Positions 7,807 through 19,211 of a DNA stretch of 64,000 bases are shown piece by piece; position 1 is the stretch's first letter, and each line of letters begins with the position of its first letter. The stretch lies in contig NZ_JACXST010000001.1 in NCBI RefSeq assembly GCF_014850975.1, positions 1,922,001 to 1,986,000 on the forward strand. The letters run 5' to 3'. Below the pieces are notes generated by a model. The model was given only the letters and a program-made list of their open reading frames with translations, ran no database searches and was not told where the DNA came from. The translations under genes and the position numbers were made by a program. The DNA comes from Methylomonas fluvii (GTDB taxonomy: Bacteria > Pseudomonadota > Gammaproteobacteria > Methylococcales > Methylomonadaceae).

Positions 7807-9690
7807 ATGTGCGGCATAGTCGGTATTTTCGATATTACAGGTGCTAGTGAAATAGACCGCAATTTGTTGTCGCGGATGAACGAATCCCAGTTCCACCGGG
7901 GGCCAGACGAAGGCGGTTTGCATACCGAGCCTGGTTTGGGTTTTGGTCACCGCAGACTGTCCATTATTGACTTGTCCAGCGGTCAGCAACCCATGCATAG
8001 TCAGGATGGCAATGTGGTGCTGACTTATAACGGTGAGGTCTACAATTTTCCTGAATTGCGAGAAGAGTTGGAGGCATTGGGCTTTAGCTTCAGGACGCAT
8101 TGCGATACAGAAGTCATTCTCTATGCTTGGCAAGCGTGGGGCGAGTCGTGCGTGGAACGCTTGCGCGGCATGTTTGCCTTTGGGATTTGGGATAGGCCGC
8201 GGCAGACCTTATTTTTGGCCAGAGATCGTCTCGGCGTAAAGCCGCTGTTTTATGCCGAATTAAGTAACGGTCAGTTCATTTTTGGTTCCGAATTGAAAGC
8301 ATTGAAACAACACCCTTTACTGCCAAAAAATGTTGACCCTACAGCGGTAGAAGACTATTTCGGCTTTGGTTACATTCCCGATCCAAAAACCATATATAAA
8401 GGTGTTTATAAGCTTGAGTCCGGATATTGTTTAACGATTAAACGAGGACAGAACGGCTTTCGGCCTAAACAATATTGGGATGTTAAATTTCAGACGGCTT
8501 CTGCGGGCAACCCAGCAGAAGCTGGTGAAGAGTTAATCCAGCGCTTGCGCGAGGCAGTGAAAATTAGAATGGTCGCTGATGTGCCATTGGGCGCATTTCT
8601 GTCTGGCGGCGTCGATTCCAGCGGTGTCGTGGCATTGATGGCGGGACTATCCAAAGATCCGGTCAATACTTGTTCGATTTCCTTCGGCGATCCTAAATTT
8701 AACGAAGCGCAATTCGCCGCCCAAGTTGCGGAGCGTTACCACACCGCACACCGAGTCGAACAAGTCGATCCCGAAGACTTTAGTTTGATTGATCAATTAT
8801 CCGGTTTGTATGACGAGCCATACGCCGACAGTTCTGCGTTACCTACTTACCGAGTTTGCGAATTGGCCAAGAAACAGGTCACTGTGGTGTTATCTGGCGA
8901 CGGCGGCGACGAGAATCTGGCTGGTTACAGGCGCTATCGCTGGCATACCTATGAAGAGAGGATGAGGGCATTATTGCCTGATGCGTTGCGGATGCCTTTG
9001 TTCTCGACCTTAGGCAAGGTATATCCGAAGCTGGATTGGGCGCCCAAGGTATTAAGGGCAAAAACAACTTTCGAGTCTATTGGTAGAGATTCGATGGCAG
9101 GTTATTTTCACAGCGTGTCGGTACTGTCCAACGGCATGCGCAGCCAATTATTTAGCGATAGTCTAAAAAGCGAGTTGCAGGGTTATGAGGCTATTGAGGT
9201 ATTCCGTCGGTATAGCCAGCAAGCTCCGGATCATCCTCTGTCAATGGTGCAATATTTGGATTTGAAAACTTATTTGGCTGGAGATATTCTGACTAAGGTT
9301 GATCGGGCTAGTATGGCTCATGCTTTGGAAGTTCGGGTGCCGTTGTTGGATCATAAACTGGTGGAATGGATGGCGACCTTGCCTCCTGATTTAAAACTAC
9401 ATGGGCGAGAAGGTAAATATCTATTCAAGAAAGCATTGGAGCCTTATCTACCTAATGATATTCTTTATCGACCCAAAATGGGTTTTGCGGTGCCATTAAG
9501 TAACTGGTTTAGAGGGCCGTTAAAGGGGCGAGTGCAGCAGGCCTTGCTGGGGGAAACTCTGAAAAGCACAGGGTGGTTCGATGACGCTTATTTGCATCAT
9601 TTGGTTACTCAGCATCAGTCCGGGCTGCGCGATTACAGTGCGTCGATTTGGTCTTTGCTGATGTTTGAAGCGTTTCTTCGAAATAGTTAA
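7807..9690 (+). CDS. XrtA/PEP-CTERM system amidotransferase (asparagine synthase-like)
   Basis: A 627-residue class II glutamine amidotransferase joined to an asparagine synthase domain. The product starts MCGIVGIFD, so Cys2 becomes the N-terminal nucleophile after Met removal. The adenylating PP-loop LSGGVDSS is at residues 265-272 and DGGDENLAGYRRY follows. It resembles AsnB, but in exosortase A loci this subfamily (TIGR03108) is thought to amidate a sugar acid or other precursor rather than serve asparagine supply. ATG at 7807 follows an AGAGAG-type ribosome site. Compare the second copy at 16695, which lacks the cysteine. Confidence 0.87.
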   Translation: MCGIVGIFDITGASEIDRNLLSRMNESQFHRGPDEGGLHTEPGLGFGHRRLSIIDLSSGQQPMHSQDGNVVLTYNGEVYNFPELREELEALGFSFRTHCDTEVILYAWQAWGESCVERLRGMFAFGIWDRPRQTLFLARDRLGVKPLFYAELSNGQFIFGSELKALKQHPLLPKNVDPTAVEDYFGFGYIPDPKTIYKGVYKLESGYCLTIKRGQNGFRPKQYWDVKFQTASAGNPAEAGEELIQRLREAVKIRMVADVPLGAFLSGGVDSSGVVALMAGLSKDPVNTCSISFGDPKFNEAQFAAQVAERYHTAHRVEQVDPEDFSLIDQLSGLYDEPYADSSALPTYRVCELAKKQVTVVLSGDGGDENLAGYRRYRWHTYEERMRALLPDALRMPLFSTLGKVYPKLDWAPKVLRAKTTFESIGRDSMAGYFHSVSVLSNGMRSQLFSDSLKSELQGYEAIEVFRRYSQQAPDHPLSMVQYLDLKTYLAGDILTKVDRASMAHALEVRVPLLDHKLVEWMATLPPDLKLHGREGKYLFKKALEPYLPNDILYRPKMGFAVPLSNWFRGPLKGRVQQALLGETLKSTGWFDDAYLHHLVTQHQSGLRDYSASIWSLLMFEAFLRNS

Positions 9691-9796
9691 ATGATCGACT
9701 TTCAAATTCTGGATCTGTACCTGTGTGCAATAGACAGATACAAGGTATTTTGCTAGAGTGCGAACCAATTCAAAGTTTAATTTAAGAGGGTTCCAG

Positions 9797-10585
9797 ATGA
9801 ACAGAATAGATGAACAGAAACGTACTGCAGAAGAATCCCAGAACGTTGGTAGATCACTTGATAAATCCAGAAGGTCTTTCGCGAAAGCTGGTGTGATTGC
9901 GCCAGTTTTAATGACACTCACAAGTAAGACCGCTTTAGGCAGTGTGTATCAATGTACTATCTCAGGAGTGCAATCAGGTAATGTGTCGAGTCATTCCGAG
10001 GATATGTCGGTTTGTAGGGCTGGACATACAGCGTTAGCCTGGAGTGGTAATGTCGATACCGTTGATGTAAATACTCAGTCTGGCACCCATCCAAATATCA
10101 ACGACTGGATCACCGCGAGAATCAATCCTTTTTTGGTTAGTAAATCGTGGCCGAAAAACACCACAAACTATACTTACAAGTATTACAAATCTAATAGTTG
10201 GGTAAACGCTTCAACATCTGCCCAAATTAAGATGTGTCAACTGATAGTCAGTAATTTTCCTAAGACCGGCACTAATGTAGATAGCTCAGGAAAGACCACG
10301 GAAACGTATAGTGCAACTACTTTTTCATCCGTATTCGGTTCGGCGTCGGCTACGACCACGTTTTTTGAAACATTACTTTATAGTCCTAGTGTGGACATCC
10401 GCGGAGCCGCTAGTGTTGATTATCTAAACGCTAGTTTAGGGTTAATACCTGATGTAAGCGGCGAAGACATCAAAAAACTTTACCTTCTGGGAATTAATTC
10501 AGCAAACACTTTTTATGACGGGAGTTTGTTAGTTTCTAATTCTGAAGCGGCTAAGGAATTACTTAGAAGTCTGGTTCCTCTTTAA
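9797..10585 (+). CDS. Unknown exported protein with Tat-type signal, in PqqD/HprK-related module
   Basis: A 262-residue protein that I do not recognise. ATG 9797 is chosen because AAGAGGG lies just upstream and because the family-like hydrophobic segment then starts near residue 25. Residues about 22-50 read as a twin-arginine signal: SRRSFAKAG followed by a hydrophobic stretch and an Ala-rich end before SVYQC. The mature part is Ser/Thr/Asn-rich with a few cysteines (the first right after the signal) and no known catalytic motif. It immediately precedes the PqqD-like gene (3-base gap), so it may be the client or substrate of that module. No homolog can be named from sequence alone. Confidence 0.7.
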   Translation: MNRIDEQKRTAEESQNVGRSLDKSRRSFAKAGVIAPVLMTLTSKTALGSVYQCTISGVQSGNVSSHSEDMSVCRAGHTALAWSGNVDTVDVNTQSGTHPNINDWITARINPFLVSKSWPKNTTNYTYKYYKSNSWVNASTSAQIKMCQLIVSNFPKTGTNVDSSGKTTETYSATTFSSVFGSASATTTFFETLLYSPSVDIRGAASVDYLNASLGLIPDVSGEDIKKLYLLGINSANTFYDGSLLVSNSEAAKELLRSLVPL

Positions 10586-10588
10586 TTT

Positions 10589-10858
10589 GTGGCTTGGACT
10601 CTTTCCTCAAGTTTTCCTATTCAGATAGCATTGCTTGATAAGCAGGCCATAGTTTTTCATCACGGTAGTGGAGAAACTCATTGTTTAGATGAGGAGGCGA
10701 GCTTAATATTATTGACAATTATGCATTCTCAAGCACCGATTAGTGAATCAACCTTGCTAGGTATGGCTGTTGATGCAGGCCTGCAGAGAGTTGATCCGCA
10801 ATCTTTAGCGGGCATGTTAGGCGTGTTGCAGAGCATTCAAGTTGTTGAAAATATATAA
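10589..10858 (+). CDS. PqqD-like peptide chaperone of the HPr-rel-A system
   Basis: An 89-residue protein starting at GTG 10589. The pattern of a short beta-rich N-terminus, HHGSGETHCLDEEASLILL and a helical C-terminal half matches PqqD-like RiPP-recognition domains, in particular the version paired with HprK-related kinase A (TIGR04353 type). PqqD domains bind leader peptides and present them to modifying enzymes. No radical SAM enzyme is nearby, so the partner here is more likely the kinase or nucleotidyltransferase. It is 3 bases after the Tat-signal gene and 5 bases before the kinase. Confidence 0.75.
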   Translation: MAWTLSSSFPIQIALLDKQAIVFHHGSGETHCLDEEASLILLTIMHSQAPISESTLLGMAVDAGLQRVDPQSLAGMLGVLQSIQVVENI

Positions 10859-10863
10859 ATATT

Positions 10864-11769
10864 TTGAGCGAACCTAATTCCACTTCACCTTTGATAGCGT
10901 CTGGGCGGTTTGTTATCAGAATTGGCCCTTTTTCAATTAGAATCCATTCTGCTATACCGTCAGTTCAGCAGGGTATCCTTGAGCTTTACTCTGCCTATCC
11001 GATATTACTCCCAGATACTTTTTGCGACTTTTATGTCCGCTTAATTCAGCCTGCGGGCGTAAGGCGTTTCTTTCGCAAACAGGTGCTATTTGCCTTTGAT
11101 CAATTTATTCCTTTCAAGCCTTTGCCTTATGCGCAGGCATTTCCATTCTTTGAATGGGGGTTGAACTGGTGTATATCCGGCTACTCACACCGGTTTCTAA
11201 TTATTCACGCCGCTGTGGTGGAGCGAAACGGTAAAACATTAATTTTACCTGGCGCGCCGGGGTCAGGTAAGAGCACATTGTGTGCAGCATTAATCAACAA
11301 CGGTTGGCGACTATTATCTGATGAATTAACTTTGGTGGATCGAGCAACCGGGTATGTTGTTCCAGTACCGCGTCCAGTTAGTTTGAAAAACGAATCTATA
11401 TCGGTGATCGCGGATACTTTTCCATTTTGCCAATTCAGCCCTGTTGTTCACGATACTTTGAAAGGATCGGTTTGTCTGATGAAGCCGCCCTCCGAATCGG
11501 TGTCAAAAGCTGATCAAACCGCCCTACCATGCTTGGTTGTATTTCCGAAGTATCGAGCAGAATCGTCTTTGAGTTTATCTGCGGTGCCGAAGTCTGAGGC
11601 GTTCATGCGGCTGGCGGACCTTTCATTCAATTACAGTGTACTAGGTGCGCAGGGTTTTGAGACCTTGGCGGGCCTGGTAAACAGCTGTCAGGCGTATGAT
11701 TTTATTTACGATGGCGATTTTAACCACGCGTCTGATTTATTTGTGCAATTATTGGATGATGTACGCTAG
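10864..11769 (+). CDS. HprK-related kinase A
   Basis: A 301-residue P-loop protein with Walker A GAPGSGKST at residues 130-138 followed by an LLSDELTLVD segment, the arrangement of HPr kinase/phosphorylase C-terminal domains. The annotated start is a TTG at 10864 giving MSEPNSTSPL; no better ATG is visible close by. HPr itself is not encoded in the window, so the target is unknown. The gene belongs to the conserved HprK-related/PqqD/nucleotidyltransferase set that occurs in exosortase loci; the reaction has not been established for this subfamily. Confidence 0.8.
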   Translation: MSEPNSTSPLIASGRFVIRIGPFSIRIHSAIPSVQQGILELYSAYPILLPDTFCDFYVRLIQPAGVRRFFRKQVLFAFDQFIPFKPLPYAQAFPFFEWGLNWCISGYSHRFLIIHAAVVERNGKTLILPGAPGSGKSTLCAALINNGWRLLSDELTLVDRATGYVVPVPRPVSLKNESISVIADTFPFCQFSPVVHDTLKGSVCLMKPPSESVSKADQTALPCLVVFPKYRAESSLSLSAVPKSEAFMRLADLSFNYSVLGAQGFETLAGLVNSCQAYDFIYDGDFNHASDLFVQLLDDVR

Positions 11770-11777
11770 AGAGTCGC

Positions 11778-12857
11778 ATGATGCCTGATTTGTTGAATGA
11801 ATACTTGATGGTCAAGGCGAAGGATAGTATTGACTCGAATTCCGATTGGGAGCTGTTGTTAAGGCAAGCAAGGAGCGCCGGAGTATTGGCCAGACTGGCA
11901 TTTTTCCGGAAAAAATTTCGATTGTTCAGCCCACCACAGCCTTTTTCTTATCATCTTGAATCAGCCGAGACTTATTGGCTGTCTCAAAAGCGCATCGTCA
12001 ATTGGGAACTGCATAACCTGTTGCAGGTCTTTAAACTTTTGAATATTCGGTTGATTTTGTTGAAAGGCACCGCTTATTCAGCAGCCGGATTGAATGCTGG
12101 TTTGGGGCGCGTATTCAGCGATATTGATATACTGGTGCCGAAGACTCAGTTGAAACAGGTCAAAGATGCGTTGAAATGGCACGGATGGCTTCCTGAGCCG
12201 ATGGATAATTACGATCAGCGCTATTACGAGCAGTGGATGCATGAATTGCCGCCGCTTAGGCATATCAAGCGTGGGACTTCGCTGGATATTCATCACAATA
12301 TACTCCCGCAAACCTGCAATTTATATCCTGATGCCGAGTTGTTGCTAAAAGCGGCTGTTAAGATAACTGATACCGATTATTGGGTTTTGGCCCCTGAGGA
12401 TATGGTTCTCCATAGTGCCAGCCATTTATTCTGGGGAGGAGAGTTTGAAAATGGTTTGCGCGATTTGAGCGACATAGATTTGCTCCTACGCGAATTTAGT
12501 GGCAACGATCCGAGTTTTTGGGAAAACCTGCATAATCGAGCAGAAATGTTGGGATTGGGTAAGCCCTTGTTTTACGCCCTCCGCTATGCCACTAAAATAT
12601 TGGCAACGCCGGTTCCTGATAATGTCATTAAGGCTTCTAACATCTATGCGGGAGGCGGAAAAAACAGAGTTATGGACTATCTTTTCTCGCAAGCCCTAAA
12701 ACCACACCATTGTAGCTGCGCGGACAGCCTGACCGGCTTTGCTCGTTGGCTGTTGTTTCTTCGCTCGCATTGGTTAAAAATGCCCTTGCATATACTAGTG
12801 CCGCATTTAATCAGAAAGGCTTGGTTTCGGCTGGCTGACAACACTAAAACAACATAA
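11778..12857 (+). CDS. Nucleotidyltransferase-family protein (PF14907 type)
   Basis: A 359-residue protein. LLKGTAYSAAGL followed by GRVFSDIDILVP (residues about 95-120) is the helix plus DxD signature of the pol-beta-like nucleotidyltransferase superfamily in its PF14907 form; a third acidic residue is likely in SLDIHHNI. The family often travels with PqqD-like and HprK-related genes and with asparagine-synthase-like proteins. The product and acceptor are unknown. It starts 8 bases after the kinase and closes the four-gene module. Confidence 0.75.
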   Translation: MMPDLLNEYLMVKAKDSIDSNSDWELLLRQARSAGVLARLAFFRKKFRLFSPPQPFSYHLESAETYWLSQKRIVNWELHNLLQVFKLLNIRLILLKGTAYSAAGLNAGLGRVFSDIDILVPKTQLKQVKDALKWHGWLPEPMDNYDQRYYEQWMHELPPLRHIKRGTSLDIHHNILPQTCNLYPDAELLLKAAVKITDTDYWVLAPEDMVLHSASHLFWGGEFENGLRDLSDIDLLLREFSGNDPSFWENLHNRAEMLGLGKPLFYALRYATKILATPVPDNVIKASNIYAGGGKNRVMDYLFSQALKPHHCSCADSLTGFARWLLFLRSHWLKMPLHILVPHLIRKAWFRLADNTKTT

Positions 12858-12921: not shown

Positions 12922-14139
12922 ATGAAGATATTACACATATTGGATCACTCCATTCCTTTGCACAGCGGATACACCTTCCGTACTCGCGCGATTCTCGAGC
13001 AACAACGCAAACTGGGTTGGGAGACGTTTCATGTCACATCCGCCAAACATCAAGTCGCGGAAGCTCCCATTGAAACCGTTGATGGACTTACCTTTTATCG
13101 ATCTGTTATCCCACAAGGTTTAGCGGCGAAATTGCCGGTTTTAAATCAATGGGCCATCGTACAGTCGTTGGCGGAACGGCTGGATGAAATTATTCCGCAG
13201 ATCAAACCGGACATTCTGCACGCCCATTCGCCCGCGTTGAACGGGCTTGCGGCCTTAAAAGTAGCTAAAAAATATGGGTTGCCGTTGGTCTACGAATGCC
13301 GGGCATTTTGGGAAGATGCGGCCGTCGATCATGGCACCACCCATGAAGGTAGTTTACGTTACCGATTGACTAAGGCATTGGAAACACATGTTTTTAAGCA
13401 TGCCGATGCGGTCACGACTATTTGCGAAGGTCTGCGCCGGGATATTATCGGCCGCGGAGTCGCAGCAGAGAAAATTACCGTGATTCCCAACGCCGTTGAT
13501 ATCGATAAATTTACCTACGGCGACGCCGCCGAGCCAAACTTGCAAGCAGAGTTAGGATTGAGCGGCAAAATTGTGCTCGGTTTTATCGGGTCTTTTTATG
13601 CTTATGAGGGGTTGTTGCTATTGCTGGATGCATTGCCGGCGATTATCCAGCAGCAGCCTGATGTGCGTTTATTGTTAGTGGGCGGTGGGCCGCAACAGCA
13701 ACAAATCGTGCAGAAAATTGAGGCGCTGGGCTTGCAGGATTGGGTCATTCTGCCCGGCCGTGTTGCTCACGATCAAGTGCAGCGCTATTACAATCTGGTC
13801 GATATCTTTGTTTATCCGCGCTTGGCGATGCGCTTAACCGATTTGGTGACCCCTTTAAAACCTCTGGAAGCCATGGCGCAAGGTCGCTTATTGGTGGCCT
13901 CGGATGTCGGTGGGCATCATGAGTTAATTCGAGACAGGGAAACTGGCTATCTCTTCAAAGCTGGAGATAAGACAGCTTTGGCACAAACGGTGTTGGCGGC
14001 CCTCGATCAGCAAGATCAATGGGAGCAAGTGCGGCTAGCCGGTAGGCGCTATGTCGAAGAAGAGCGTAATTGGCAGCGCAGTGTCAGTCATTATCAGGCT
14101 GTTTACGGCAGGATAATGGCGGGTAACAATGGCAGATAA
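12922..14139 (+). CDS. Exosortase A system-associated glycosyltransferase (GT4, TIGR04063-like)
   Basis: A 405-residue GT-B glycosyltransferase. The N-terminus MKILHILDHSIPLHSGYTFRT is characteristic of the exosortase A-associated subfamily, and the donor-site region PLKPLEAMAQGRLLVASDVGG lies near residue 315. It is probably a cytoplasmic enzyme of exopolysaccharide repeat assembly. Its last 11 bases overlap the start of the next glycosyltransferase, which implies coupled translation. Confidence 0.85.
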   Translation: MKILHILDHSIPLHSGYTFRTRAILEQQRKLGWETFHVTSAKHQVAEAPIETVDGLTFYRSVIPQGLAAKLPVLNQWAIVQSLAERLDEIIPQIKPDILHAHSPALNGLAALKVAKKYGLPLVYECRAFWEDAAVDHGTTHEGSLRYRLTKALETHVFKHADAVTTICEGLRRDIIGRGVAAEKITVIPNAVDIDKFTYGDAAEPNLQAELGLSGKIVLGFIGSFYAYEGLLLLLDALPAIIQQQPDVRLLLVGGGPQQQQIVQKIEALGLQDWVILPGRVAHDQVQRYYNLVDIFVYPRLAMRLTDLVTPLKPLEAMAQGRLLVASDVGGHHELIRDRETGYLFKAGDKTALAQTVLAALDQQDQWEQVRLAGRRYVEEERNWQRSVSHYQAVYGRIMAGNNGR

Positions 14140-15334
14140 CTCGCCAAGGCTGATTGTTTTCAGTTCTTTGTATCCCAGCCGTGTCAGACCTAACGCTGGC
14201 GTTTTTATTCGAGAGCGTATGTCCAAAGTAGCCGGGCTTTGTTCTTTAGTTGTCATTTCCCCGGTGCCCTGGTTCCCACTGCAAAGCCTGATTCAATGGT
14301 TTAAACCGAATTACCGGCCGCAACCGGATAAGTACGAAAATCAAGACGGTATTTCTGTCTATTTCCCGCGCTTTTTATCGATACCCGGAATCGGACGCTC
14401 TTGGGACGGCTTTTTTATGGCGTTGTGTAGTTTGGTGACTTGTCGACAATTAAAAAAGAGCTTCGCATTTAATTTGATCGATGCACACTTCGCATACCCT
14501 GACGGTTATGCGGCCACGTTACTCGGCAAATGGTTTAAGGTGCCGGTCACCATCACTTTACGCGGCACAGAAGTGCCATTGTCTAAAATTCCCAGTCGCC
14601 GCCAACGATTATTAAAAGCTCTCAATGATGCCGCCCGAGTATTTTCGGTATCGGATTCTTTAAAGCGGCACTTAGTGAATTTAGGCGCCGACGCTCAGAA
14701 AATCCAGGTGGTGGGCAACGGCATCGATACCGCAAAATTTTTTCCTATCGATAAAAAGCAGGCAAGGCAACATTGGCAAATTCCTGAAGACGCCCAGGTA
14801 CTGATCTCGGTCGGCGGATTGGTCGATAGAAAAGGTTTTCACCGGGTGATCGAAGTTTTGCCTGCATTAATCGAAAAATACCCGCGATTGCTATACTTGA
14901 TCGTCGGAGGCGCAAGTCCGGAAGGCGATATTCGCAGTCGCTTGGAGCAACAAGTTGAAACGCTGAATATTGGCCGGCATGTTCGTTTTCTTGGGGCTTT
15001 GCCTGCTGAACAATTGTACGGCCCATTATCGGCAGCTGATTTATTCGTCCTGGCAACGGCCAACGAGGGCTGGGCCAACGTGTTTTTGGAGGCTATGGCT
15101 TGCGGCTTGCCGGTGATTAGTACCGATGTTGGTGGCAATCGCGAGGTGGTTGCTAATGAAACATTGGGTACTATCGTGCCCTTTGGGGATGCTGACGCAT
15201 TGTTACTGGCGCTTGATCATGCTTTGCAACGGCAGTGGGACCGGCAAGCTCTTGTAAATTATGCGGCTGATAACTCTTGGGATAAGCGGGTGGATATTTT
15301 GTTGGCAGAATTTAAAAAACTGGTGGAGTCATGA
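14129..15334 (+). CDS. Glycosyltransferase family 4 protein
   Basis: A 401-residue GT4 enzyme with an N-terminal FSSLYPSRVRPNAGVFIRER acceptor segment, a central LISVGGLVDRKGFHRVIE motif and a C-terminal NEGWANVFLEAMACGLPVIS donor-binding motif. It resembles WcaL/TuaC-like transferases, but the sugar cannot be read from the sequence. It overlaps the upstream gene by 11 bases and the downstream gene by 4 bases (ATGA), so the three are a tight translational block. Confidence 0.85.
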   Translation: MADNSPRLIVFSSLYPSRVRPNAGVFIRERMSKVAGLCSLVVISPVPWFPLQSLIQWFKPNYRPQPDKYENQDGISVYFPRFLSIPGIGRSWDGFFMALCSLVTCRQLKKSFAFNLIDAHFAYPDGYAATLLGKWFKVPVTITLRGTEVPLSKIPSRRQRLLKALNDAARVFSVSDSLKRHLVNLGADAQKIQVVGNGIDTAKFFPIDKKQARQHWQIPEDAQVLISVGGLVDRKGFHRVIEVLPALIEKYPRLLYLIVGGASPEGDIRSRLEQQVETLNIGRHVRFLGALPAEQLYGPLSAADLFVLATANEGWANVFLEAMACGLPVISTDVGGNREVVANETLGTIVPFGDADALLLALDHALQRQWDRQALVNYAADNSWDKRVDILLAEFKKLVES

Positions 15335-16680
15335 GCTTTTATACGTCTTTTTGTTCAACGGTAATCTTTCCGCTTCACGAAGCCTTAAAAAAGCACACTA
15401 CCGTCAAAGTAAGGCGCGGCATGGAGCGCAGTCAGTGGCTAAAACCCGACGAGATTAGGCAGTTGCAGCTGCAAAATTTACGCGCATTTCTGCAAGATGT
15501 ACAAGTGCATGTACCTTACTACAGGCAGTTGTTCGCCAACTTGAGGTTTGATCCGGCGAACCTTGATAGTGTGCAAAAATTAGCCGAGCTACCGTTGTTA
15601 AGTAAGCCGGAAATCAGGCAGCATCTTGATGAAATGAAAGCGGACGATGCCCAAAGACTCGCGCGTTTCAACACTGGCGGTTCCAGTGGAGAACCATTGA
15701 TTTTTTACATCGGTAGCCGCCGAGTTAGTCATGATGTCGCGGCAAAGTGGCGGGCTACCCGTTGGTGGGGTGTCGATATAGGTGACCCGGAAGCAGTAAT
15801 TTGGGGGTCTCCAATCGAACTAGGTGCGCAGGATAAAATTCGCTTGTTACGCGATAAATTGTTGCGTACGCATCTGATTCCGGCGTTCGAAATGTCGTCG
15901 GAGAAGTTGGACGGCTTTATTCGACAAATCCAGCAGATTCGTCCGAAAATGTTATTTGGTTATCCTTCCGCGTTGGCCCATATTGCCAGTCATGCTGAGA
16001 AGAGGGGCGTGGCATTGAATAACTTGGGGATTAAAGTGGCTTTCGTGACATCGGAACGGCTTTACGATCACCAGCGGACAAAAATAGAAAGCGTGTTTGC
16101 TTGTCCGGTCGCGAATGGTTACGGCGGGCGTGATGCCGGTTTTATTGCCCATCAGTGTCCCGGAGGCAGTATGCATATTACCGCTGAGGACATTGTCGTC
16201 GAGATTGTTGACAAACAAGGTCAGCCTTTACCTAACGGAGAGCTCGGTGAAATCGTGGTTACGCATATGGCGACCAGAGATTTTCCGTTTATTCGGTATC
16301 GTACCGGCGATATGGGAATATTGTCGGATAAAGTCTGTTCTTGTGGGCGCGGACTACCAGTGCTGGAGGAGATTCAAGGTCGAACCACCGATTTTGTAGT
16401 TGCTCAGGATGGAACGGTATTGCACGGCTTGGCATTGATTTATGTCTTGCGAGATTTAGAAGGCGTTGATTCCTTTAAAATCACCCAATACAGTTTGGAT
16501 AAAACTACTGTGCAAATTGTTAAAACCCTGAAATATCAAGCGGCTTACGAACAAAAAATCGTCGACGAATTTAAAAAACGTTTAGGACCAGCAGTTACCA
16601 TCAATATCGAATACACCGATTACATTCCCAAGGAACGTTCAGGAAAGTTCCGTTATGTGATCAGTCACGTCAAGGCATAA
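15331..16680 (+). CDS. CapK/PaaK-like adenylate-forming enzyme
   Basis: A 449-residue member of the phenylacetate-CoA ligase/CapK group. The NTGGSSGEPL motif (residues about 111-120) is the ATP-binding loop, and YRTGDMGIL plus a CSCGRGLP cysteine cluster follow in the C-terminal half. CapK-like proteins occur in capsule and exopolysaccharide clusters, where they probably activate a carboxylate for transfer to a sugar. There is no phenylacetate pathway around it, so the paaK name should not be applied. It overlaps the upstream gene by ATGA. Confidence 0.85.
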   Translation: MSFYTSFCSTVIFPLHEALKKHTTVKVRRGMERSQWLKPDEIRQLQLQNLRAFLQDVQVHVPYYRQLFANLRFDPANLDSVQKLAELPLLSKPEIRQHLDEMKADDAQRLARFNTGGSSGEPLIFYIGSRRVSHDVAAKWRATRWWGVDIGDPEAVIWGSPIELGAQDKIRLLRDKLLRTHLIPAFEMSSEKLDGFIRQIQQIRPKMLFGYPSALAHIASHAEKRGVALNNLGIKVAFVTSERLYDHQRTKIESVFACPVANGYGGRDAGFIAHQCPGGSMHITAEDIVVEIVDKQGQPLPNGELGEIVVTHMATRDFPFIRYRTGDMGILSDKVCSCGRGLPVLEEIQGRTTDFVVAQDGTVLHGLALIYVLRDLEGVDSFKITQYSLDKTTVQIVKTLKYQAAYEQKIVDEFKKRLGPAVTINIEYTDYIPKERSGKFRYVISHVKA

Positions 16681-16694
16681 CTATATCGATCACT

Positions 16695-18479
16695 ATGACA
16701 AAATTTGCAGGATGGATGGGGAGCGGTCTCCAGAAAGATGAATCTATCGCTTTGCTCGGGCAAATGACGGCGGCAGATTCGATATTTAATGTTCAGCATG
16801 GTCAGAACTACGCTTTTTCAACCGCCGCGACCGATATGACGAACAGCAATGGGGTATTGTTGCTTGCCCCGCAGTCCGGTTCGCGACTAGGTCGCTCACA
16901 GAGTTTGTGGGATGCCTATTTAAGTCGCGGTGTCGATTTTTTAGACGGTTTCCCGGAAGCTGATACCTTGTTGCTTATCGATACCAATCAGCAGCTGCTG
17001 ATGTTGGCTACCGATCCGATTGGTCTCAGTAATATCTATTACGCAGAAATTGCCGGTGGCCTAATATTTGGCTCAAGTGCTGATTTTGTAGTGCGTCATC
17101 CTCAGGTCAGTAACGACATTGCGCCGCAAGCGGTATTTGATTACATCTATCTCAACCATTGTCCCAGCCCTACAACGATATATCGGCAAGTTAAAAAGCT
17201 GGAAGGTGGGCAGTGCTTGGTTTATCACAATGGACGAATCAGCTTAAAACGCTATTGGCTACCGGTATTTCGTGAGCAATCCTGTGATTTGCAGCAAGCC
17301 GGCCTGGAATTGCAGCAGCAGTTGATCGAAGCGGTTAGAAGTATGGCCGATAGCGAGGACAATACCGGTGCGTTTCTGAGTGGCGGGCTGGATAGTTCCA
17401 GTGTGGCGGGGGCCTTGGCAAAGGTATTTCCAGGCAAGGCGAAAACCTTTTCCATGGGTTTTGACGCCGATGGCTATGATGAAATCGAGTACGCCAATAT
17501 TGCAGTGCAACGTTTCAACGCGCGGCAACACCAGTACTACGTCACTCCCGAGGATACCGTTAATGCCGTGCCGGCAATAGCGGCTTACTATGATGAGCCG
17601 TTTGGGAATGCGTCGGCTTTGGCTGCGTATTATTGCGCCAAGTTGGCGAAGGATCACGGTGTTGACCGTTTGCTCGCTGGGGATGGTGGGGACGAGATTT
17701 TTGCTGGTAACGAGCGCTATGCCAAGCAAATGTTATTCGAGAGTTATCATCGCCTGCCAAAATTCCTCAGTGCTGGCCTTGAGGCAACATTAAATGCCTT
17801 ACCGGATGTAATAGCCAAACAGAAACTACCGTTTAAGGCAAAACGCTATATCGATCAGGCGAACGCAGCGATGCCGGACCGCCTCCAGGATTACAATTTT
17901 TTGCATCGGCATGCTGCAGCAGATATTTTTCAAGCTGATTTTTTAGCGGAAATTGATACTTCTGCGCCCTTACGCCAGTTTAGGGAAGACTATTGGCGGC
18001 CGGAGTCCGCTAGTACCTTGAACCGTATGCTGTATCTGGATTGGAAAAATACGCTCCACGATAACGATTTGGTCAAAGTCAACAGAATGTGCGAAATGGC
18101 AGGTGTTGAAGTTTGCTACCCCTTATTGGATCGACGTATTCTCGACTTATCTTGCCGAATTCCCTCAAATGACAAGTTGCGAGGACAAAAACTGCGTTGG
18201 TTTTACAAACAGGCTATGACGGGTTTCCTCCCGGAGCGGATTATCAATAAGCCCAAGCACGGCTTTGGGTTGCCTTTCGGCGTTTGGCTGAAGGATCATC
18301 AGCCGCTTAAGCAACTGGCTTATGGCGCAATAAACGATTTGAAGCGGCGCGAGTTTTTTAAACCGGACTTTTTGGATCATGCTATCGAGATGCATCAAAG
18401 CGTGCATGCTGCCTATTACGGTGATTTAGTATGGATGTTGATGATGCTGGAGCTTTGGTTTGCCGGTAAGAGTTTGTAG
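16695..18479 (+). CDS. Asparagine synthase-like protein lacking the glutaminase cysteine
   Basis: A 594-residue asparagine synthase homolog. The synthetase half is intact, with PP-loop LSGGLDSSS at about residues 228-236 and GDGGDEIFAGNERY downstream. The N-terminal domain keeps the fold outline but begins MTKFAGWMG instead of MCGIVG, so the N-terminal cysteine nucleophile is absent. It may use free ammonia or another amine, or form an amide on a glycan or peptide, perhaps with the CapK-like enzyme encoded 14 bases upstream. It is the last gene of the exopolysaccharide run. Confidence 0.82.
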   Translation: MTKFAGWMGSGLQKDESIALLGQMTAADSIFNVQHGQNYAFSTAATDMTNSNGVLLLAPQSGSRLGRSQSLWDAYLSRGVDFLDGFPEADTLLLIDTNQQLLMLATDPIGLSNIYYAEIAGGLIFGSSADFVVRHPQVSNDIAPQAVFDYIYLNHCPSPTTIYRQVKKLEGGQCLVYHNGRISLKRYWLPVFREQSCDLQQAGLELQQQLIEAVRSMADSEDNTGAFLSGGLDSSSVAGALAKVFPGKAKTFSMGFDADGYDEIEYANIAVQRFNARQHQYYVTPEDTVNAVPAIAAYYDEPFGNASALAAYYCAKLAKDHGVDRLLAGDGGDEIFAGNERYAKQMLFESYHRLPKFLSAGLEATLNALPDVIAKQKLPFKAKRYIDQANAAMPDRLQDYNFLHRHAAADIFQADFLAEIDTSAPLRQFREDYWRPESASTLNRMLYLDWKNTLHDNDLVKVNRMCEMAGVEVCYPLLDRRILDLSCRIPSNDKLRGQKLRWFYKQAMTGFLPERIINKPKHGFGLPFGVWLKDHQPLKQLAYGAINDLKRREFFKPDFLDHAIEMHQSVHAAYYGDLVWMLMMLELWFAGKSL

Positions 18480-18690: not shown

Positions 18691-18740
18691 AACAAGTTTG
18701 AGAGTTTTAAGTTCCGTTCATCATAAAAAAGAAGGTGGTT

Positions 18741-19211
18741 ATGAATAAGCAAATGCAAAAAGTACAACAAGGTTTTACCTTGATCGAGTTAATGATCGTG
18801 GTCGCCATTATCGGTATCCTGGCAGCCATCGCGATTCCGGCTTATCAAGATTACACCGTTAAATCTAAAATCTCGGAAGGACCAAGCTTAGCTTCACCAG
18901 CATTTACTGCTGCCGGTGTGTCTTGTAGTGAGCAAACCCTAGGTTCAGGTACTAATACGAGTAGTAACTTTAATTTGCCGGCAGCTGCTCTTATTTGGGG
19001 GAAATATGTTAAATCAGTCGCCCTTACATCAGGCTCTACTAGTAGTGCGACCGTAACAATTACTTATAGAACTATTGGTCAAGCGGTTACCCCCGGGACT
19101 GACAATATTCTTGAGTACGATGGAGCATGTACAAGTGGTGCGGGCATGAGATGGACTATAAACGGCGGCGTGACAAACACTGTCCAAACTAAATATCACC
19201 CTAAAACCTAA
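18741..19211 (+). CDS. Type IV pilin (PilA-like major pilin)
   Basis: A 156-residue prepilin. ATG 18741 follows an AAGAAGG ribosome site; a GTG two codons upstream is less likely. After a 10-residue leader ending in Gly comes [20 protein letters not shown] with Glu at mature position 5, the classic prepilin peptidase and methylation site. Two cysteines (in SCSEQ and GACTSG) could form the C-terminal disulfide loop. A strong terminator follows, so the gene can be expressed separately from its neighbours. The next gene may act on the pilin. Confidence 0.9.

Follow-up and report, generated by a model that had tools for sequence, protein, structure and literature searches.

A Tat-leader protein is encoded with a predicted RiPP recognition element, an HprK-related kinase and a nucleotidyltransferase in a conserved four-gene unit of Methylomonas fluvii

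Which protein is the target of an HprK-related kinase that is encoded beside a PqqD-like protein? The question is raised by four adjoining genes in a stretch of 64,000 nucleotides of Methylomonas fluvii (assembly GCF_014850975.1, contig NZ_JACXST010000001.1, positions 1,922,001 to 1,986,000 of the forward strand; hereafter the window). They encode a protein with a twin-arginine translocation (Tat) signal (gene 1), a PqqD-like protein (gene 2), an HprK-related kinase (gene 3) and a nucleotidyltransferase (gene 4). The analysis supports the four genes as a conserved unit, and gene 1 is probably the substrate of the modifying enzymes. It would then be a candidate substrate for an enzyme system that is named but, in the open-access literature searched, has no target. 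On balance we consider it likely that full-size Tat-exported proteins are phosphorylated here under the guidance of a recognition element, perhaps with a subsequent glycosyl or nucleotidyl transfer, following the logic of ribosomally synthesised and post-translationally modified peptides (RiPPs).

The genes follow each other in the order 1-2-3-4 on the plus strand with gaps of 3, 5 and 8 bases, and direct reading of the sequence confirmed the coordinates given in a preliminary description of the locus (Table 1). The mechanically called open reading frame of gene 1 begins at a GTG at 9758, upstream of the ATG at 9797. Promoter-like and terminator-like sites between 9400 and 13100 were near the shuffled level (6 against 6.7 and 5 against 4.2 expected, respectively). 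The pairing of an HprK-related with a PqqD-like protein had been recognised before, and both proteins passed the cut-offs of the curated models: gene 3 reached 365.8 bits with TIGR04352 (cut-off 200), and gene 2 barely exceeded the cut-off of TIGR04353 (36.0 bits, cut-off 35). The assignment of gene 4 also held, with 170.7 bits for PF14907 (cut-off 31.2).

The association of gene 1 with the kinase was followed across the order. Gene 1 had one match in its own genome, and a match at E 0.001 was found in 42 of 201 genomes, one per genome. A kinase over the TIGR04352 cut-off occurred in 76 of the 201; all 42 genomes with gene 1 were among these, and none of the other 125 had it (hypergeometric P 1.2e-22, which is not an exact probability as the genomes are related). 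The kinase match lay 333-1716 nt downstream on the same strand in 41 of the 42 genomes. In the last one (G106), gene 1 and the kinase are on different contigs, each near a contig end; it also provided the single exception (L010) among 30 fetched gene 1 loci, the kinase being downstream in 29. Since the bodies of the proteins differ, many gene 1 matches are confined to the leader and the initial tens of residues. A profile was also built from 59 proteins that share one body type (type A, see below). It matched 15 of 20 kinase-positive genomes versus 2 of 60 below the kinase cut-off, these genomes being taken from lists and not at random, with a weak kinase-profile match in 40 of the 60 negatives; 14 of the 15 matches adjoin the kinase. 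The preliminary description had named homologs of gene 1 standing mostly without the kinase as the result that would speak against it. The opposite was found in both searches.

Starting from the kinase, 177 loci were collected: 56 from a phylum sample, 40 from the order, L123, and 80 named loci that are the best 80 of 194 confirmed. The phylum sample comprised 398 genomes with 61 over the kinase cut-off; of these, G000 is the genome of the window itself, and G222, G277, G373 and G389 were omitted because the match was incomplete or close to the end of a contig. The order loci came from 34 genomes with a kinase and no gene 1 match and from 6 with both. An upstream gene with the leader (profile score of at least 12 bits) was present at 138 of the 177 loci, which are not independent (L127/L218, L152/L238 and L154/L221 have identical gene 1 sequences and L129/L130 nearly so), and at 134 of the 166 whose upstream sequence reaches 1300 nt or more. 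As controls, the reverse strand gave such a match at only 1 of 177 loci and the downstream region at 3 of 177. By eye, a twin-arginine gene was recognised in front of the kinase at 21 of the remaining 39 loci, eight of them from one family (f53), which brings the total to 159 of 177, or 155 of the 166 with enough upstream sequence. A nucleotidyltransferase match was found on the kinase strand at 165 of the 177 loci and less than 400 nt from the kinase match at 156.

Gene 1 contains the twin-arginine motif SRRSFAK at residues 24-30, as had been described, and combines the twin arginine with an AxA-like end (R25R26, A46-L47-G48), as expected for a Tat substrate. Over the 138 loci, with a profile seeded with RR sequences, the leader columns showed RR (98/100%), K or R (88%), P (78%), T or S (96%), L (87%), S (80%) and A or G at the end. 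Ordinary Tat proteins from 15 of the same genomes served as control (30 loci, 29 readable, among which one hydrogenase subunit is present four times and one other protein three times). The loose motif [PG]-x-[VILMAF]-x-[TS]-[LVIMF] was present in 117 of 138 gene 1 leaders versus 4 of 29 controls, the strict motif in 75 of 138 versus 0 of 29, and a cysteine at most 15 residues behind the signal in 134 of 136 gene 1 proteins versus 1 of 27 placeable controls; the leader, serine and cysteine motifs were derived and counted on the same sequences. Judged by its sequence, the leader of gene 1 is special among Tat signals.

Behind the leader the proteins diverge. Simple patterns sorted the 138 proteins into 48 of type A (C..S...SGN, often with SPGxW and LNA), 42 of type B (tail [ST]C[WFY]xS), 7 of type D (tail like AILSSxSAxS) and 41 without type, many of them A-like; the eight f53-family proteins, read by eye, end in GFTC[FY]ASLQ. 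S56 and S60 are invariant across the 59 aligned type-A proteins, in which the mean column identity is 13% (the window protein and 58 of 65 named-locus proteins, 7 with other bodies being excluded). Some Methylomonas members differ around S56. The motif C-x(1,4)-S-x(3)-S was found directly behind the leader in 104 of 116 type A and untyped proteins (116 of 118 could be placed) versus 2.45 by shuffling; among the Tat controls it was matched by four, all one hydrogenase subunit. At this place, type B proteins showed S-x(1,4)-C in 41 of 41 cases versus 5.7 expected. Gene 1 itself gave zero Pfam or NCBIfam matches at E 0.1. No known family could be assigned either from the 59 members, with one weak Pfam match in one of them and scattered NCBIfam matches in one member each, nor did Foldseek return any solved PDB structure with E below 1. 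The earlier statement that gene 1 is without known fold is therefore maintained. Its predicted model has a mean pLDDT of 64.5 and is poor at residues 34-50 and 87-140, while the C-terminal part is predicted as a helical domain, with pLDDT 73-92 over most of 151-260.

The structure predicted for gene 2 is that of a RiPP recognition element (RRE). The model (pLDDT 94.9) shows strands followed by three helices, in agreement with the winged-helix RRE fold. The best PDB match was the lasso RRE TbiB1 with its leader peptide (TM 0.73, E 5.9e-4), and the RREs of a sactisynthase, MccB and TfuB1 were also matched. By sequence profile, most of the length could be matched to TfuB1 (E 0.015) and TbiB1 (E 0.045); designed helical proteins and MepR rank above TfuB1 in this search, without any matched stretch passing alone. 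TIGR04353 recognised 45 of 52 aligned gene 2 proteins and the lasso PqqD model 3.

A comparison with the genome G187 revealed a sharp boundary within gene 1. Identity per 20-base bin was 85-100% over 9700-10019, including the leader and the serine motif, dropped to 10-85% (mean about 51%) over 10020-10859 in the remainder of gene 1 and in gene 2, and was again 90-100% from the kinase start to 11019, where the listing ends. At protein level, identity was 97% for the upstream amidotransferase, 55% for gene 1, 41% for gene 2, 96% for the kinase and 94% for the nucleotidyltransferase. G036, G076 and G134 likewise lose identity from about 10000 to 10860, their flanks being less similar (about 68-95%); the closer genomes G174 and G156 show no such drop. 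The variable body and the RRE thus travel together, whereas the leader stays with the enzymes. Such a joint exchange would fit an RRE matched to its own body, yet it could be mere linkage.

In gene 3, the residues invariant among 25 kinases include Y42, E97, N101, H115, G133, G135, K136, T138, D153, E154, K175, T198, K200, G201 and N256. A true HPr(Ser) kinase/phosphatase was rejected, as TIGR00679 gave 22.8 bits against a cut-off of 240. In gene 4, K96, G97, R111, D115, D117, Y149, H155, D170 and H172 were conserved in 153 of 153 aligned nucleotidyltransferases; from the fold, we take D115, D117 and D170 to be the catalytic acids. Both enzymes are fused in one frame of 706 aa at L085, in a fragmented genome with 8% contamination. 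Other long frames at L088, L110, L114 and L167 have no P-loop in that frame and were rejected as fusions. At L161 (G143, contig C2, 2023541-2025066) the kinase match is in two pieces about 0.7 kb apart, by an insertion or in a broken gene.

The nucleotidyltransferase is not the sole partner seen behind such kinases. At 10 of the 152 loci of at least 9 kb (L076, L077, L078, L086, L089, L090, L091, L094, L096 and L097) a TPR-sulfotransferase, named from one representative, lies directly behind the kinase, 815-932 nt after the start of its match, and the nucleotidyltransferase is displaced downstream or was not found there. Contig C3 of the window's own genome holds three more HprK-like kinases below the TIGR04352 cut-off, each overlapping or directly before a Sulfotransfer_1 gene (L120, 7440-9298; L121, 5024-6774; L122, 4753-6828), and L122 also holds a lasso-type PqqD (PF05402, 72.9 bits). 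These pairs appear to be an analogue of the kinase-nucleotidyltransferase pair.

The unit may best be read as a proteobacterial counterpart of the phosphorylated lasso and LPP peptides. Gene 1 would be the precursor, with an N-terminal leader that doubles as the Tat signal and a full-size body behind it. The RRE would hold it in the cytoplasm and present it to the kinase, which would phosphorylate a serine just behind the leader, S56 and S60 being the best candidates. The nucleotidyltransferase would act on the phosphoserine, most likely by adding a sugar or nucleotidyl group, and the modified protein would be exported by Tat and lose its leader to a host signal peptidase. The Tat route carries proteins that have folded and been modified before they leave the cell, and for this reason it suits the proposed mechanism. 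A more specific version, in which the Tat signal doubles as a RiPP leader and the RRE binds the signal, gates export and directs both enzymes to the nearby serine, is possible but doubtful. If this version is true, Pseudomonadota would have a widespread class of secreted proteins that are folded and phospho-(glycosyl)ated, and strains would exchange the body with its recognition element as one cassette and keep the modifying enzymes. The function of the kinase would become testable by a single mass measurement, and RiPP recognition would be linked to the Tat export gate.

Several observations weigh against leader-guided phosphorylation of gene 1. Of the 166 loci with sufficient upstream sequence, 11 show no twin-arginine gene before the kinase, and a same-strand nucleotidyltransferase match was not found at 12 of the 177 loci, although L203 and L084 have less than 200 nt left. 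The kinase profile matches HPr kinase structures around the P-loop only (E 0.0035). No aromatic residue of the kind seen in the lasso/LPP binding motif [Y/W]xxP is present in the leader, and TIGR01409 picks up 1 of 59 leaders at E 1. Type B proteins keep the serine before the first cysteine and have the C-terminal [ST]C[WFY]xS tail, so that a single common phosphorylation site is not established. The type-A match of G468 is on another contig than the kinase. Of the two matches below the kinase cut-off, that of G484 (L244:3490-4386, minus strand) is a free-standing protein with a GYWK...LLNA type-A body, no such leader and no Pfam match, hence the type-A body also occurs outside the unit; that of G583 is the Tat signal of what seems to be a TRAP-type binding protein, hence an ordinary Tat signal can be weakly recognised through the leader section of the profile. 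Finally, according to the part of the source available, the LPP system showed no detectable change when lppN was deleted in the host used (PMC13381572), which makes the role of gene 4 a guess.

The unit is surrounded by genes of polysaccharide synthesis. The two asparagine-synthase-like genes and the CapK-like enzyme lie as previously described, accompanied by the XrtA-type polysaccharide genes TIGR03016, TIGR03015, wecB, TIGR03006, TIGR03019, TIGR03087 and TIGR03088. The second asparagine-synthase-like gene is closely followed by a gene for a prepilin-type protein with an N-terminal methylation motif (18735-19211). A relative of a window polysaccharide gene was present in 61 of the 152 loci of at least 9 kb and a recurrent polysaccharide-type neighbour cluster in 88; the latter clusters, named from one representative each, are glycosyltransferases, an amidotransferase, PrsT, PrsK, PrsR, TIGR03007, TIGR03015 and two without name. 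As they occur at no more than these fractions of the loci, the asparagine synthase, CapK and other polysaccharide genes are placed outside the unit. The locus had been described as an exosortase locus, of which the XrtA-type flanks stand. No exosortase is present in the window (contig C1), and both PF09721 matches of this genome are on contig C2 (342799 and 687693). PF09721 was found in 32 of 61 genomes with the module versus 11 of 60 others (Fisher P 1.2e-4); the exosortase was rejected as a unit member for its location on another contig and for 29 of the 61 module genomes without a match, some of them incomplete. A trypsin-like serine protease, for which the nearest NCBIfam models are of the MarP/Do family (below cut-off), was encoded near the unit in 34 of the 152 loci, L227:10076-10858 and L102:6213-6998 being examples; usually it lies close before gene 1 or close behind the nucleotidyltransferase. 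Among the 20 window genes scanned with NCBIfam (26-27742), none was named as a protease, a SipW-like signal peptidase, an MsbA-like exporter or a radical SAM enzyme, and a radical-SAM partner for gene 2 was rejected on this basis.

Table 1. Positions in the window of the four genes, of elements within gene 1 and of flanking genes
Feature	Position	Strand	Remarks
Gene 1, presumed substrate	9797-10585	+	262 aa from ATG; twin-arginine leader and variable body
Gene 1 leader/signal, residues 1-48	9797-9940	+	leader columns over 138 loci
Gene 1 R25 R26	9869-9874	+	
Gene 1 conserved P36	9902-9904	+	followed by T40-L41
Gene 1 leader end A46-L47-G48		+	putative signal-peptidase site after 9940
C53-x2-S56-x3-S60 motif directly behind leader	9953-9976	+	candidate phosphorylation site(s)
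Exchange cassette, variable body of gene 1 and whole gene 2	10020-10863	+	versus G187
Gene 2, predicted stand-alone RRE, PqqD family TIGR04353	10589-10858	+	89 aa, GTG start
Gene 3, HprK-related kinase A	10864-11769	+	301 aa, TTG start; P-loop G130-T138, H115, D153, E154
Gene 4, nucleotidyltransferase PF14907	11778-12857	+	359 aa, ATG start
TIGR03108 amidotransferase, upstream flank	7807-9690		1081.8 bits, cut-off 816.9
TIGR04063 glycosyltransferase, downstream flank	12922-14139		
PaaK/CapK-like ligase	15331-16680		
Second asparagine-synthase-like gene	16695-18479		

This setting allows a different division of labour, in which the RRE is mainly a Tat proofreading chaperone for gene 1, while the kinase and nucleotidyltransferase modify another target, for instance a lipid carrier or polysaccharide precursor that belongs to the adjacent locus. 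The unit often stands among XrtA-type polysaccharide genes, with the neighbour cluster at 88 of 152 loci, and the conserved leader bears the marks of a Tat signal. We nevertheless regard this explanation as unlikely: 64 of the 152 loci have no such cluster in the fetched stretch, and in the available parts of the sources the kinase homologues of the paeninodin and LPP clusters act on a precursor peptide (PMC9266682, PMC13381572). Gene 1 could also be a disguised precursor of a small peptide, from which a protease would free a short modified peptide and of which the body would be a carrier. Its constant leader and variable body resemble the LPP precursors of 35-200 aa, as far as the source is available, and the secreted trypsin-like protease at 34 loci could do the cutting. 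This is rather improbable for proteins with a median length of 203 aa (n=137), given also the predicted C-terminal helical domain of gene 1 and the lack of a named protease among the 20 scanned window genes.

Closely related species differ sharply in body and gene 2, which are replaced jointly, and the bodies are highly diverse; this recalls a conflict module, with gene 1 as secreted effector and gene 2 as its partner. However, the Pfam and NCBIfam scans matched no toxin or immunity family, there is one gene 1 match per genome in the 42 genomes, gene 2 has a predicted RRE fold, and the joint exchange may reflect physical linkage alone; this reading appears very improbable.

Nothing was found on this four-gene system in the open-access literature, subscription journals being outside the scope of the search. 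The closest named system is HPr-rel-A, of which genes 2 and 3 exceed both curated cut-offs. Its models name enzymes without a substrate, whereas the present description adds the Tat-leader gene in front, with its body types. The SynChlorMet cassette likewise pairs an HprK-like (ScmC, TIGR04249) with a PqqD-like protein (ScmD, TIGR04248), but gene 3 scores only 34.1 bits with the ScmC model, below the cut-off of 125. The SynChlorMet cassette contains radical SAM genes.

Paeninodin and pseudomycoidin lasso clusters share with the unit an RRE (B1), an HprK-like precursor kinase and a nucleotidyltransferase homologue, PsmN. As described in the part of the source available, PsmK phosphorylates the C-terminal serine of pseudomycoidin and PsmN is required for the hexose on the same serine (PMC9266682). 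The phosphorylated serine is thus C-terminal there, and no lasso cyclase or B2 peptidase was found in the unit. A lasso peptide cluster was also rejected on the asparagine-synthase-like genes, with 255.6 bits for 7807-9690 and 132.5 for 16695-18479 against the cut-off of 525 of the cyclase model NF033535.

The LPP set comes closest. In the accessible portion of its description (PMC13381572), it consists of a discrete RRE, an HprK-like kinase and an NTP transferase with no cyclase in the core, its precursors have a conserved N-terminus and a variable C-terminus, and the kinase phosphorylates core Ser3, following a leader that a signal-peptidase homologue cleaves. The same enzyme set without cyclase, a precursor with constant N-terminus and variable C-terminus, the polysaccharide-locus context and a phosphorylated serine near the leader (here predicted) recur in the unit. 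LPP systems, to the extent that this source covers them, belong to Bacillota, have their own SipW-like peptidase and MsbA-like exporter and use the leader motif YxxPxVLxHQ, whereas the unit belongs to Pseudomonadota, has a precursor of 262 aa with a Tat signal, and shows no dedicated peptidase or exporter among the scanned genes. The extended LPP motif YxxPxVLxHQxIxFETxxS is absent from the leader columns, which instead have P-x-[VIL]-[LM]-[TS]-L without aromatic residue. Because phosphorylated lasso peptides and LPP peptides already provide examples of an RRE, HprK-like kinase and NTP transferase without radical SAM enzyme, so far as these sources are available, the unit is a variant and no isolated novelty. 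The earlier suggestion of an undescribed system is accordingly narrowed to a new variant with a Tat-leader protein, with which RiPP-type modification guided by a leader would no longer be confined to peptides but include full-size exported proteins.

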